From Affinundibacterium macrobrachii (GTDB taxonomy: Bacteria; Pseudomonadota; Gammaproteobacteria; Burkholderiales; Burkholderiaceae_D), in contig NZ_BMYT01000001.1 in the NCBI RefSeq assembly GCF_014652415.1, positions 801,352 to 865,351 of the forward strand: a DNA stretch of 64,000 bases. Direction: 5' to 3'. The translations under genes and the position numbers were made by a program. This document shows, one piece after another, positions 6,291 through 56,384 of the stretch; within the stretch, counting starts at the first letter, position 1; each line of letters starts with the position of its first letter. The notes beneath the pieces are model-generated. The model saw nothing but the letters and a program-made list of their open reading frames with translations, was not told the DNA's origin and did not search any database.

Positions 6291-7577
6291 TTATTGGCGA
6301 ACTTCACCATGACCAAAGACCACGTATTTCAAAGAGGTTAATCCTTCCAAGCCAACGGGTCCGCGCGCGTGCAGTTTATCATTAGAAATGCCGATTTCCG
6401 CGCCGAGCCCATATTCAAATCCATCTGCGAATCGAGTCGATGCATTTATCATGACCGATGCCGAATCGACTTCGCGCAAAAATGCCATGGCACGACTATA
6501 GTCTTCGGTGATGATGCACTCGGTGTGCTTGGACGAATAGCGGTTGATATGTTCGATTGCTTCCTTCATATCAGCCACCACTTTGATTGCCAAAATCGGT
6601 GCTAAGTATTCGGTAGACCAATCAGCTTCTTGCACCTCTGCCAAATAAGGATAAGCGTGTAGGATTTGTGCTGCTTGTGCATCACAACGCAATTCTACTT
6701 TTTCAGTCAAATAACGCTCGGCTAACAAGGGCAAAACCTGTGGAGCAATTGCTTCAGCCACCAATAGGGTTTCCATCGTATTGCAGGTACCGTAGCGATG
6801 GCATTTTGCATTAAATCCTATATCGATGGCTTTTTGCAGATCTGCTTTATCGTCGATATAGACGTGGCAGATGCCGTCCAAATGCTTGATCATCGGCACA
6901 GTCGCTTCGCGCATCAAGCGTTCTATCAAACTTTTGCCACCACGCGGCACAATCACATCCACATATTCTGGCATGGTAATCAAAGCACCAACCGCAGCGC
7001 GGTCGGTGGTATCAACCACTTGCACCGCTTGTTCCGGCAAACCAGCGGCAGCTAGTCCCTCTTTCACCAATAATGCCAATGCGCGATTACAATGAATAGC
7101 TTCGGAGCCACCGCGCAAGATGGTTGCATTACCACTCTTGATACATAAACCCGCTGCATCCACCGTCACATTCGGTCGCGCTTCATAAATAATACCGATC
7201 ACGCCCAGCGGCACGCGCATTTGTCCAACCTGTATGCCAGATGGGCGATATTTCATATTCGAGATTTCGCCGATGGGATCAGACAAGCGGGCAATTTGTT
7301 CTAGGCCTTCTGCCATCGTAGCAATCGCTTTATCGCTCAAGGCAAGGCGATCTAACATCGCGGCATCCATGCCTGCAGTTTTTGCGGCGGCCAGATCGAG
7401 TTCATTGGCGGCACGCAAAGAAGCGGCATCACGACGAATTGCTGTAGCTATAGCAAGCAGCGCTTTGTTTTTGGTGGCTGTGTCGGCCTTTGCCATCGCA
7501 CGTGATGCTAAGCGCGCTTGCTGGCCTAGGGTTTGAATATAGATGGCGACGTCGCCAATATTTTTTTCAACGCTCAT
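6291..7577 (-). CDS. proA: Gamma-glutamyl phosphate reductase
   Basis: NADPH-dependent reduction of glutamyl-5-phosphate to glutamate-5-semialdehyde in proline synthesis; cytosolic. The 428-residue protein is full length for ProA. The aldehyde-dehydrogenase-fold landmarks are visible: [20 protein letters not shown] for nucleotide binding and [15 protein letters not shown], which contains the catalytic cysteine. It lies downstream of holA. The 162-bp gap between them is filled mostly by the structured element described separately at 7622-7739. The partner kinase proB is not in this window. Confidence 0.95.
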
Positions 7578-7621: not shown

Positions 7622-7739
7622 CCGAGCTTCACAAAATTGCTTTTTGGGATGCAGCGCTAGGCGCTCAGCGCAGCAATATGTCGATATTGCGAGCATGAGC
7701 AACAATGCGATGCGCCCAAATAAGCGATTTGGCGAAGCG
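7622..7739 (-). repeat. Structured intergenic palindromic element, copy A (72-bp conserved core 7646-7717)
   Basis: The core starts gggatgcagcgctaggcgc, has a central hairpin gcaatatgtcgatattgc, and ends gcgatgcgccc. It is the same length (72 bp) as copy B at 55705-55776 and differs at only about a dozen positions. The core folds as nested stems: GGG/CCC, GCAgCGC/GCGaTGC, GCTCA/TGAGC, and GCAATAT/ATATTGC. Outside the core the flanks pair with each other (gcttcacaaaattgctttt against the complement of aagcgatttggcgaagc). The element begins directly after the holA stop codon. It is assigned to the minus strand because both copies follow minus-strand genes. Confidence 0.75.
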
Positions 7740-8759
7740 TTAATTTGCTTTTGCTACGCGCAAACCCAGATGCAATAAAGCATCCCAAGCATCACCAGCA
7801 AATTTTGGCGCACGTAAGCCCTTCACCATTTTGTCGATTTGCGCAGCGTCTTGTAATGCTGCTTGCAGGGTCGCCAAACTCACACGACGTAATGCGGGTT
7901 CCATGAGTTTTTCTCTTGGCCCCCAGATACGGTACTCTTTTAAGAGTGCCCCCAATGGGCGTCCTTGTGCGACGCCGGATTTTAATTTGAGTAAGGTGCG
8001 TAGCTCTTCTGCCATCGCCCATAAGACCAAAGGTAGCGCTTCGCCCTCGCCTTTGAGTCCATCTAACATTCTGACCAAGCGTGCCACATCACCAACCAGC
8101 ATCGCTTCGTTAAGTTTAAACACATCATAACGAGCGACGTTTAAGACCGCATCGTGAATCACGTCAAAACTCAATTTACCTTGTGGATGTAGCAAACCGA
8201 GTTTTTGAATTTCTTGATGCGCTGCGAGTAAGTTTCCTTCCACCCTATCCGCAATAAACTCCAAGCTTTGACGATCTGCGCTTTGGCCTTGTGCCGCCAA
8301 TCGTTGTCCTATCCAATTCGGCAAGGCAACGCGTTCAATTAAAGGGATGTCGATATACACAGCAACCTGCTGCAACATCGTCACCCAAGCTGCTTTTTGC
8401 GTTGCCCAATCAAGTTTGGGCAAGGTAATTAAAGTGATGTTATCGGGCGAGAGATCACGTACATATTCTTGTAAAGCTGCGCCGCCGTCTTTACCAGGTT
8501 TGCCTGTAGGAATACGCAAATCAATCAGCTTTTTGTCGCCAAATAAGGATTGTGATTGGTTCGCAGCGAGCAGTTCGCCCCACTTAAAATAGCGTTCTAC
8601 CGTGAGAATTTCGCGCTCTAAAAAACCTTGTGCTTTCGAGACTTTACGAATTTTGTCAGCGGTTTCTTGGACTAGCAAATGCTCATCGCTGGAGATAACA
8701 TACATCGCCGCCAAACCTTTGGCGAGATGGGCATCAATAGCGTCGTAGCGTAATTGCAT
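7740..8759 (-). CDS. holA: DNA polymerase III subunit delta
   Basis: The clamp-loader delta subunit that opens the beta clamp during replication. At 339 residues it is the usual length. The N-terminal region (YVISSDEHLLVQETADKIRK) is the expected ATPase-like domain without a P-loop, followed by the helical collar domain near the C-terminus (MVKGLRAPKFAGDAWDALLHL). It is 23 bp after lptE in the same direction; the lptE-holA pair downstream of leuS is a conserved arrangement in proteobacteria, which supports the call. Confidence 0.92.
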   Translation of the reverse strand: MQLRYDAIDAHLAKGLAAMYVISSDEHLLVQETADKIRKVSKAQGFLEREILTVERYFKWGELLAANQSQSLFGDKKLIDLRIPTGKPGKDGGAALQEYVRDLSPDNITLITLPKLDWATQKAAWVTMLQQVAVYIDIPLIERVALPNWIGQRLAAQGQSADRQSLEFIADRVEGNLLAAHQEIQKLGLLHPQGKLSFDVIHDAVLNVARYDVFKLNEAMLVGDVARLVRMLDGLKGEGEALPLVLWAMAEELRTLLKLKSGVAQGRPLGALLKEYRIWGPREKLMEPALRRVSLATLQAALQDAAQIDKMVKGLRAPKFAGDAWDALLHLGLRVAKAN

Positions 8760-54598: not shown

Positions 54599-55612
54599 TT
54601 ACTTCGCACTCATCAATGCAACAGTCGTGTCCAACATACGGTTAGAGAAACCCCACTCATTGTCGTACCAGCTAGATACTTTGACCAAACGACCATTTAC
54701 TTTGGTCAATGTTTCGTCGTATGTGGAAGATGCTGGATTGTGGTTGAAGTCAACAGAGACCAATGGTGCTTTGTTGTAATCCAAAATACCTTTCAAGGCA
54801 CCTTCTGATGCGTCTTTCAATACTTTGTTGATTTCTTCAACTGTGGTATCGCGCTTAGCAATAAACGTCAAATCAACTACGGAAACATTGATCGTTGGTA
54901 CACGCATTGCGTAGCCATCCAATTTACCGTTCAACTCTGGCAATACCAAACCTACCGCTGCTGCTGCACCAGTTTTGGTTGGGATCATGCTCATGGTTGC
55001 AGAACGCGCACGACGCAAGTCTTCATGCATTACGTCTGTCAAGACTTGATCATTGGTGTAAGCGTGAATCGTTGTCATCAAACCGCTTTCGATACCGATT
55101 GCATCGTTCAATGGTTTTGCCAATGGTGCTAAGCAGTTCGTTGTGCAAGACGCGTTAGAAATAACGGTGTCAGTTGCTTTCAATACACCGTGGTTCACGC
55201 CGTACACGACTGTTGCGTCTACATCTTTACCCCCTGGTGCGGAGATAATGACTTTCTTTGCGCCGCCAGCTAAATGCGCAGATGCTTTTTCTTTAGTTGT
55301 GAAAAAGCCCGTGCATTCCAACACAACGTCAACATTCAATTCGCCCCAAGGGATATTCGCAGGATTACGTTCTGCGAATACTTTGATCTTGTCGCCATTA
55401 ACGATCATGGTGTCGCCTTCAACACTCACTGTGCCAGGGAACTTGCCGTGTGCGGTATCGTAACGTGTCAAATGCGCGTTAGATTCTGCGTTACCCAAAT
55501 CGTTAATCGCCACGATTTGAATTTCATTTTTAAACTTACCACCTTCGTAATGTGCACGTAGGATATTACGACCGATACGGCCATAGCCGTTAATTGCGAC
55601 GCGAATCGTCAT
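54599..55612 (-). CDS. gapA: Glyceraldehyde-3-phosphate dehydrogenase
   Basis: The glycolytic NAD-dependent dehydrogenase, 337 residues, full length. NAD-binding start [20 protein letters not shown]; catalytic cysteine in [13 protein letters not shown]-terminal [13 protein letters not shown]. The neighbouring tkt gene 0.8 kb upstream in the same direction makes a typical Calvin/pentose-phosphate-glycolysis pairing of Burkholderiales, with a GNAT gene and a structured repeat inserted between. Confidence 0.97.
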
Positions 55613-55682
55613 GGTTCAATCTCCAAAAAGACAAACAGCAACAAAAAATAAAACACAAAAAAACTTAAAATCCTTTGAACAA

Positions 55683-55798
55683 GGTTTATAGAAACCTCTT
55701 AGTCGGGATGCAGCGCTAGGCGCAATCCGGAGCAATATGTCGATATTGCGAGGAATTGCAACAACGCGATGCGCCCGAATATGAGGTTTATATAAACC
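55683..55798 (-). repeat. Structured intergenic palindromic element, copy B (72-bp conserved core 55705-55776)
   Basis: Second copy of the element at 7622-7739, with the same 72-bp core length. Its inner stem is GCAAT/ATTGC where copy A has GCTCA/TGAGC, and the central GCAATAT/ATATTGC hairpin is unchanged. The outer arms are ggtttatagaaacctcttag and the complement of aatatgaggtttatataaac; they match each other at 19 of 22 positions but share nothing with the arms of copy A. It begins one base after the GNAT stop codon. Confidence 0.75.
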
Positions 55799-55799
55799 G

Positions 55800-56384
55800 C
55801 TATTGCATAGCACGCGGAAACGGCATGGCATCCGCCGATGCCATCATCACGCTCAAATCATTCCAACCGTAACCCACCTCGGTCAGATCTAATCCATCCC
55901 AACTAAAATCTTGCTCGATGAGGATCTCTCCACCGAGTTCTTCGTAAAAATTGCGCGCTTGTGCATTGCCGTCAATCACCCAGATCACGCAACTCGTGCA
56001 GCCCATCGCTTGTAGAGAACGGGCTGCCTTATGCAACATGCGTTTACCGATGCCACAACGTTGCCATTGTGGGCGTATATAAATCGCATTGATTTCGCCA
56101 TCTTTGCCCAGCTTTGGCTCAGGCAATTTCATCGCTGAGACGAAACCAACGATCTCATTATCACTCACCGCGACATACACACACAGACTGTCTTCTTTTA
56201 CCGGCAACGCCTGCAAAATCGTACGCCAATGCAGTACGTTTTCGTTCATGTCCATCTCGTTGAGATAACTATCAGGAATCATGCCACGATAAGTCGTGCG
56301 CCAGCCCTCGATGCGGATTGCGGCGATCGCTTCCGCATCTGCGACTGTGGCACGACGTAATTGGATTTCCTTGATTTTATTCAT
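55800..56384 (-). CDS. GNAT-family N-acetyltransferase
   Basis: A 194-residue acetyltransferase. N-terminal IQLRRATVADAEAIAAIRIE, acetyl-CoA loop YIRPQWQRCGIGKRMLHKAA, and the downstream CTSCVIWVIDGNAQARNFYE segment are standard for the family. About 25 residues follow the domain at the C-terminus. It lies between tkt and gapA; substrate unknown. Confidence 0.82.
   Translation of the reverse strand: MNKIKEIQLRRATVADAEAIAAIRIEGWRTTYRGMIPDSYLNEMDMNENVLHWRTILQALPVKEDSLCVYVAVSDNEIVGFVSAMKLPEPKLGKDGEINAIYIRPQWQRCGIGKRMLHKAARSLQAMGCTSCVIWVIDGNAQARNFYEELGGEILIEQDFSWDGLDLTEVGYGWNDLSVMMASADAMPFPRAMQ

Follow-up and report, generated by a model that had tools for sequence, protein, structure and literature searches.

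Integron attC sites are recognized as a folded strand through their unpaired bases; they have variable stems, a fixed orientation right after a stop codon, and R and L boxes of the form GTTRRRY ... RYYYAAC. ERIC- and Correia-type repeats are imperfect palindromes of ~100 to 130 bp that lie between genes and have sequence-conserved ends, and we know of no registration of these repeats with stop codons. The REP/BIME elements of enterobacteria and pseudomonads, which go with RAYT transposases, are extragenic palindromes, interspersed through the genome, whose stem contains a mismatch. Their size is given as 20 to 40 bp (PMC3733652), and E. coli REPs less than 15 nt from a stop codon have been reported to stall ribosomes (Liang 2015, cited in PMC12306157).

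Here, we analyze a hairpin that occurs twice in a 64,000-nucleotide stretch (the window) of the Affinundibacterium macrobrachii genome. It is one of about 30 copies of an undescribed hairpin-forming Undibacterium DNA repeat that lies, almost always in one direction, right after the stop codons of genes that are unrelated to each other. This adds an unlisted repeat family, genus-wide in Undibacterium, with a core that reaches other Burkholderiales.

Results

The two copies in the window (Table 1) have cores that are 86.1% identical. A sequence-only reading of this DNA had described two 72-bp cores with three common blocks and an exchange of GCTCA/TGAGC for GCAAT/ATTGC in the stem, and re-reading confirms each of these points. 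The variation that it placed between the blocks is real, although some positions inside the variable blocks are identical in copies A and B too. That reading followed the strand opposite to the genes, however, and overlooked the position of the hairpins behind stop codons. The gene upstream of copy B is one that we take, from its sequence, to encode a GNAT acetyltransferase.

Table 1 Coordinates of both copies of the repeat and of their neighboring genes in the window
Feature	Position	Strand	Remarks
Conserved core, copy A	7646..7717	-	72 bp; sense strand of flanking genes is -
Whole hairpin, copy A	7622..7739	-	Starts immediately after holA stop codon
holA (DNA polymerase III delta), upstream gene of copy A	7740..8759	-	TIGR01128; stop codon 7740-7742
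proA (glutamate-5-semialdehyde dehydrogenase), downstream gene of copy A	6291..7577	-	NF001221
Conserved core, copy B	55705..55776	-	72 bp
Whole hairpin, copy B	55681..55799	-	Starts immediately after upstream gene's stop TAG (55800-55802)
Upstream gene of copy B	55800..56384	-	No NCBIfam match at 1e-10
Type I glyceraldehyde-3-phosphate dehydrogenase, downstream gene of copy B	54599..55612	-	TIGR01534

Both full hairpins outfold all or nearly all shuffled sequences. RNA folding of the plus strand gave z-scores of -5.3 (7622-7739) and -6.9 (55681-55800); for DNA folding, the copy A and copy B hairpins scored -3.9 and -8.7 on the plus strand and -3.0 and -6.8 on the minus strand. Without their outer parts, the 72-bp cores fold less strikingly (z of -1.8 to -2.7). 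In both copies, the strand opposite to the genes is the better DNA folder (-31.4 versus -27.7 and -33.7 versus -28.3).

The family is not confined to the two copies from which the sequence-only reading had reasoned: a covariance model built from 14 copies finds 30 distinct places in the window's genome, 26 of them above 60 bits (the search gave 38 rows, 8 of which are the same places read on the opposite strand), and blastn with copy A finds 16 places. The model has matches in 39 of 60 relatives (32 of 36 within Undibacterium), with 0 to 44 match rows per Undibacterium genome; at most 59 candidates were scored per genome under strict filters and some places were counted on both strands, so these copy numbers are rough. 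The covariance model has no match in four Undibacterium genomes, the 100% complete G012 and the incomplete G006, G019, and G024. Among the pattern matches listed, named records are mostly Undibacterium species and Oxalobacteraceae/Burkholderiales metagenome genomes. Tandem arrays of at least 2 units, 105 to 124 bp apart, occur among the matches listed in one metagenome genome and in U. nitidum; L163, L168, L182, L250, and L228 are such arrays, and the right arm is complete only at the end of some of them.

A viral collection yielded one match, close to the end of an 11-kb contig, and 4 of 72,556 plasmid records match copy A. In both Cupriavidus plasmids examined, the repeat is opposite in orientation to its genes; in a Mitsuaria plasmid, it has the same sense as the genes and lies 24 nt after a stop codon. 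The copies at these plasmid loci (L329, L330, and L331) are diverged and stand between genes of plasmid-borne operons.

The sequence-only reading knew of no described family with this core, and Rfam 15 agrees: at the gathering score, there are no matches in the window or in 20 related loci, and at E values up to 10, only two chance-level matches appear near copy A. A betaproteobacterial toxic sRNA family, considered as a candidate, has no Rfam match in its support. Among the open-licence papers listed in our searches, none describes the repeat family, and those listed for the end sequences were unrelated.

Each copy forms a long imperfect hairpin of ~125 bp, composed of a conserved part of ~102 bp with sequence-conserved internal loops and a site-specific outer stem of 10 to 12 bp. 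Read on the gene strand, the conserved part starts ATAAATCC and ends GAATTTCT, with the site-specific stem on both outer sides. To place copies relative to genes, we used nhmmer matches from loci some of which had been retrieved by means of the core pattern, which biases the set toward good cores; the 173 unique copies collapse to 66 sites, and genes for the orientation and stop-distance counts were called by open reading frame length. The gene context could be classified for 138 copies: 116 are flanked on both sides by genes on the strand opposite the one read earlier and 5 by genes on that strand (i.e., 116 of 121 copies in tandem-gene contexts share one orientation), while 8 are convergent and 9 divergent; 3 further copies lie inside an open reading frame.

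The position of the stop codon is similarly restricted. An upstream stop lies within 120 nt of 138 of 167 copies, and 95 of these 138 have it 7 to 14 nt before ATAAATCC; 14 copies provide the stop themselves, as the TAA of their ATAAAT. After collapsing to sites, 34 of 63 have a stop 7 to 14 nt upstream, and the opposite strand gives 1 of 63; the remaining sites have no stop (12), a stop more than 20 nt away (8), at 1 to 6 nt (3), inside (5), or at 15 to 20 nt (1). Two controls in the same DNA show a wider spread: canonical terminators (154, of which 93 have a stop in range), most at 15 to 45 nt, and GTAG REPs (48), for which a same-strand stop is in range of 18 and lies within 15 nt of 6. In 24 core matches from other Burkholderiales, stops are scattered on both strands with no registration, so the registration is established for Undibacterium only.

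The covariation surmised from two copies is strong in further ones. Pairing of the 14 copies is far beyond chance: 94.3% of cells are paired, 20 of 41 pairs have changed on both sides, and the covariation score is 0.448 versus 0.148 for shuffled alignments, with 0 of 500 shuffles matching any of five measures. Shifting the partner by 1 to 3 columns drops paired cells from 94% to 33 to 40%. The sequence-only reading took such a co-varying stem for the hallmark of a selected RNA or single-stranded DNA. What stands of that reading is a real, undescribed, structured, and covarying family; covariation as the hallmark of a selected stem is not supported, given the types of change that we observe. 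We made 100 ortholog comparisons, which are not independent of one another, from 143 of the 173 copies (leaving out copies not of 102 nt or out of register and pairs with fewer than 4 differences). These contain 264 two-sided Watson-Crick swaps, of which 149 are of the transversion type, with no route through G-U, and 115 (44%) are possible through G-U; one-sided changes led to G-U in 70 cases, to A-C in 69, and to other mismatches in 119. Likewise, 111 non-redundant copies (kept from 160 after removing sequences more than 92% identical) hold 30 G-U and 26 A-C pairs outside one fixed U.G pair. These near-equal counts argue against selection for RNA pairing, because G-U should be much better tolerated than A-C in an RNA stem. 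In the outer arms, read on the gene strand, A-C (77) even exceeds G-U (37), and wobble is therefore better kept on the other DNA strand. Two fixed T.G pairs occur only on the strand opposite the mRNA (columns 17-107 and 30-94 of alignment A1), although the one fixed U.G pair is on the mRNA strand.

In RNA data, the A-T/G-C or C-G/T-A types make up 61.0% of instantaneous compensatory changes, the two-step ones pass through G-U in 78.5%, and template switching has been proposed as a maker and keeper of stems without selection (PMC8794818). The lack of G-U preference in our copies fits DNA hairpins corrected by template switching. One copy, e165 (L248), now has an inner part that is a perfect palindrome and has lost the otherwise conserved internal loop; it looks like the outcome of a single template-switch event. 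Loop bases T31, C42, T61, and T74 are conserved in 140 to 142 of 143 copies, and unpaired columns overall diverge more among orthologs than paired ones (0.204 versus 0.127), so only some loop bases are constrained. We infer that DNA-level correction contributes to the pairing and that some loop bases, these four among them, are kept for recognition; the greater divergence of the unpaired columns as a whole counts against this.

The repeat might instead be a regulatory RNA hairpin of the 3' UTR on which selection acts at the RNA level, whether for the stability of the mRNA, the stalling of ribosomes, or the binding of a protein, with its nature as a DNA repeat secondary, a reading that we consider tentative. 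The sense orientation, the position 7 to 14 nt after the stop, the covariation that no shuffle reaches, and the conserved internal loops are all consistent with it, as are outer-arm changes that track coding changes, such as those at queA (e9/e100) and cmk (e110/e118). Against it stand the absent preference for G-U over A-C, its reversal in the outer arms, the fixed T.G pairs opposite the mRNA, and the lack of any copy in G012, a 100% complete congener. An RNA-level role is kept alive by orientation and stop-codon register, which are predicted by an RNA-level or translation-coupled role and are unexplained by neutral DNA hairpins.

The core extends beyond Undibacterium. A central-module pattern occurs in 17 of 300 Burkholderiales genomes, including the window's own and 16 non-Undibacterium genomes, and a control pattern occurs in none. 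In other Burkholderiales, the core lies inside TA-flanked palindromes of ~160 to 193 bp, several with ends TAGTGTAGTG or TAGTGTCCTGAG, and so it is, as judged from these contexts, a portable palindrome tip. In G105, a 193-bp palindrome has the same 15-bp ends and TA borders as a 1164-bp transposase unit; common ends with a transposon were found only for these related palindromes of G105. The unit (L362, G105:C86, 1015-2178) has TAGTGTAGTG ends that enclose a gene for an IS630-family transposase (NF033545, 199.7 bits); two overlapping frames share this gene between them, and ~193-bp non-autonomous relatives in the same genome carry the core. Two loci, L078 and L275 (G059), have the same central module in hairpins whose outer arms pair nearly unbroken for ~45 to 53 bp. 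A longer palindrome of G060 has no match among the 72,556 plasmid records.

These palindromes and the one transposase gene with shared ends would be expected if the core descended from TA-flanked, IS630-type MITEs and the Undibacterium copies were immobile relics with decayed ends. We regard this descent, too, as tentative: the Undibacterium outer arms vary by site and have no common terminal inverted repeat of the kind found in IS630-type MITEs, TA stands at the mirror position in only 11 of 73 copies (neighboring offsets, 1 to 9), so that a TA target duplication is not apparent, the G105 gene is split, and IS630 matches do not track copy number.

We found no mobilizing enzyme among IS630, reverse transcriptase, and RAYT genes. 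IS630 models match nothing in the window's genome, and a single one of the 36 Undibacterium genomes has a match above the cut-off; as a resident mobilizer, IS630 is unsupported, since it fails to track copy number, and so is reverse transcriptase, which is absent from the copy-rich genomes G016 and G032. RAYT (PF01797) is present in 35 of 36 Undibacterium genomes, but of 20 RAYT regions only 3 contain a match to the model, a weak one in one case, and at 4 of 6 RAYT loci with readable flanks nothing like the core was recognized by eye. RAYT score correlates with copy number (rho of 0.61 from hand-entered numbers, phylogeny not controlled), which probably reflects shared ancestry. A mobilizing role of these near-universal genes, which are not regularly beside the repeat, is unsupported by their neighborhood. 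At L119, L121, and L122, RAYT genes of ~280 to 293 amino acids have another repeat on their flanks, GGGTCAGGCCTTACATTTGACAT with its complement.

Outside the conserved part, 96 of 159 copies reach an anchored-complementarity score of 6 or more, versus 2.6% for mismatched flanks, and the outer stem is 10 to 12 nt long in 66 of these 96. Pairing then drops sharply: position 10 is paired in 76 of 104, position 11 in 56, position 12 in 35, and position 13 in 19. Where a stop is in range (73 copies), the outer stem extends to the stop codon in 46 copies and into the preceding codons in 21. Copy e9 (U. flavidum, L206) and copy e17 (U. amnicola, L124), which occupy different loci, match at 101 of 102 core positions, but their arms are identical at only 1 of 11 and 2 of 11 positions, and each is self-complementary. 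Because near-identical cores have different arms, the arms are not simply carried with the core, unless gene conversion has equalized the cores; gene conversion between copies could also yield similar cores with different arms. In the orthologous copies e21 and e31, the outer stem is perfect over 12 bp in each, and 5 of the 12 pairs differ between them. We recognized no two copies at different sites whose equal arms would mark a recent move.

The queA-tgt junction, compared at 26 of 30 loci, records the arrival of a copy. The queA gene ends TCA followed by TAA or TAG in G009 and G030; in the window's genome, G032, and G023, arm, core, and arm lie between TCA and a TAA, and the repeat supplies a new stop, while only the first bases of the repeat remain in G016. 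These alleles show a clean insertion of the repeat at queA. At L371 to L374, the QueA C terminus is altered by the repeat-supplied stop codon. Between the window's genome and U. amnicola, sites L043 and L048 are common to both and L039 is partly deleted; the site of copy B holds another hairpin in U. amnicola. Across 30 congener loci, the model finds the repeat at the site of copy A (holA-proA) in the window's genome and in G030, and damaged in G032; a match in G028 is close to a contig end. Sites with both flanks but without the repeat exist, several of which contain other repeats, and their intergenic DNA is too diverged to tell which arm is ancestral. In relatives, these 3' ends are also taken up by palindromic repeats of other kinds, namely GTAGGGCGGG REPs and a CCGCAGAGGCGCAGAG family (L173 1424-1500; L154; L085), and the sites are therefore repeat hotspots.

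An unlikely but conceivable origin of the arms is translation-coupled insertion, in which each new copy would land 10 to 11 nt (the ribosome edge) behind a stop in sense orientation and the 10- to 12-bp outer stem would be made anew at each site, giving near-identical cores with unrelated self-complementary arms. It is quite improbable that the core inserts into loops of existing hairpins, such as terminators, leaving the old hairpin as the outer stem. The e9/e17 pair, with unrelated yet self-complementary arms, would agree with such an event, but free hairpins mostly start 20 to 30 nt after stops (12 at 0 to 4 nt versus 64 at 20 to 24 nt among 1017 gene ends), whereas the arms start at the stop, and the left arm is missing from relatives at queA; both observations disfavor it. 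We rejected an intrinsic transcription terminator, which a long GC-rich hairpin after stop codons might suggest, as highly improbable: the U-tract is mostly lacking (a T5 run at its position in only 8 copies), a canonical terminator follows within 140 nt in 9 of 169, and a terminator scan is negative at both window hairpins, with no site at copy B and only small ones around 7544-7557, outside the hairpin, at copy A.

Discussion

With moderate confidence for the reading as a whole, we propose that these hairpins are a non-autonomous, REP/MITE-like palindromic DNA repeat with conserved recognition loops, whose arms would be matched largely by template switching and which may have a REP-like effect when transcribed. 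The hairpin would be maintained at the DNA level, its arms re-matched by template switching during replication, and its internal loops kept because a putative DNA-hairpin-binding or transposing enzyme recognizes them. The leading edge of a terminating ribosome lies ~10 nt past the stop codon. The base of the conserved hairpin, ~10 nt after the stop, would stand near this edge and, by analogy with E. coli REPs, transcribed copies might because of this position hinder termination or protect the mRNA end.

Should the registration with stops have a function, each genome would contain up to dozens of genes equipped with a mobile control element at the 3' end; should it instead reflect the mechanism, it would point to an insertion process able to read a gene's translation state. 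The family is also a warning case, a bacterial hairpin with textbook covariation without the bias of G-U over A-C that RNA selection brings, and its ortholog series at many sites make it directly testable how bacterial hairpins keep their pairing.

Of the described systems, REPs share with the Undibacterium repeat an extragenic location, interspersed palindromes with stem mismatches, and a position often less than 15 nt from the stop, as at the 34 sites registered here. The Undibacterium repeat differs in its size (~125 bp, or ~118 bp for the copy A hairpin), in the absence of a GTAG tag from the alignment of 14 copies, in its strict orientation and site-specific outer arms, and in its presence in only a few RAYT regions; ordinary GTAG REPs are present separately in the same loci. 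IS630/Tc1-type MITEs are linked to it by the same core in TA-flanked Burkholderiales palindromes that share ends with an IS630-family transposon, but the Undibacterium copies have neither a common terminal repeat nor a general TA duplication. ERIC- and Correia-type repeats resemble it in length, imperfect palindromy, and location between genes, and differ in their conserved ends. Integron attC sites are set apart by their cassettes, since the flanks of the Undibacterium repeat are core genes in place (holA-proA and queA-tgt); they nevertheless offer an analogy for how this repeat may work.
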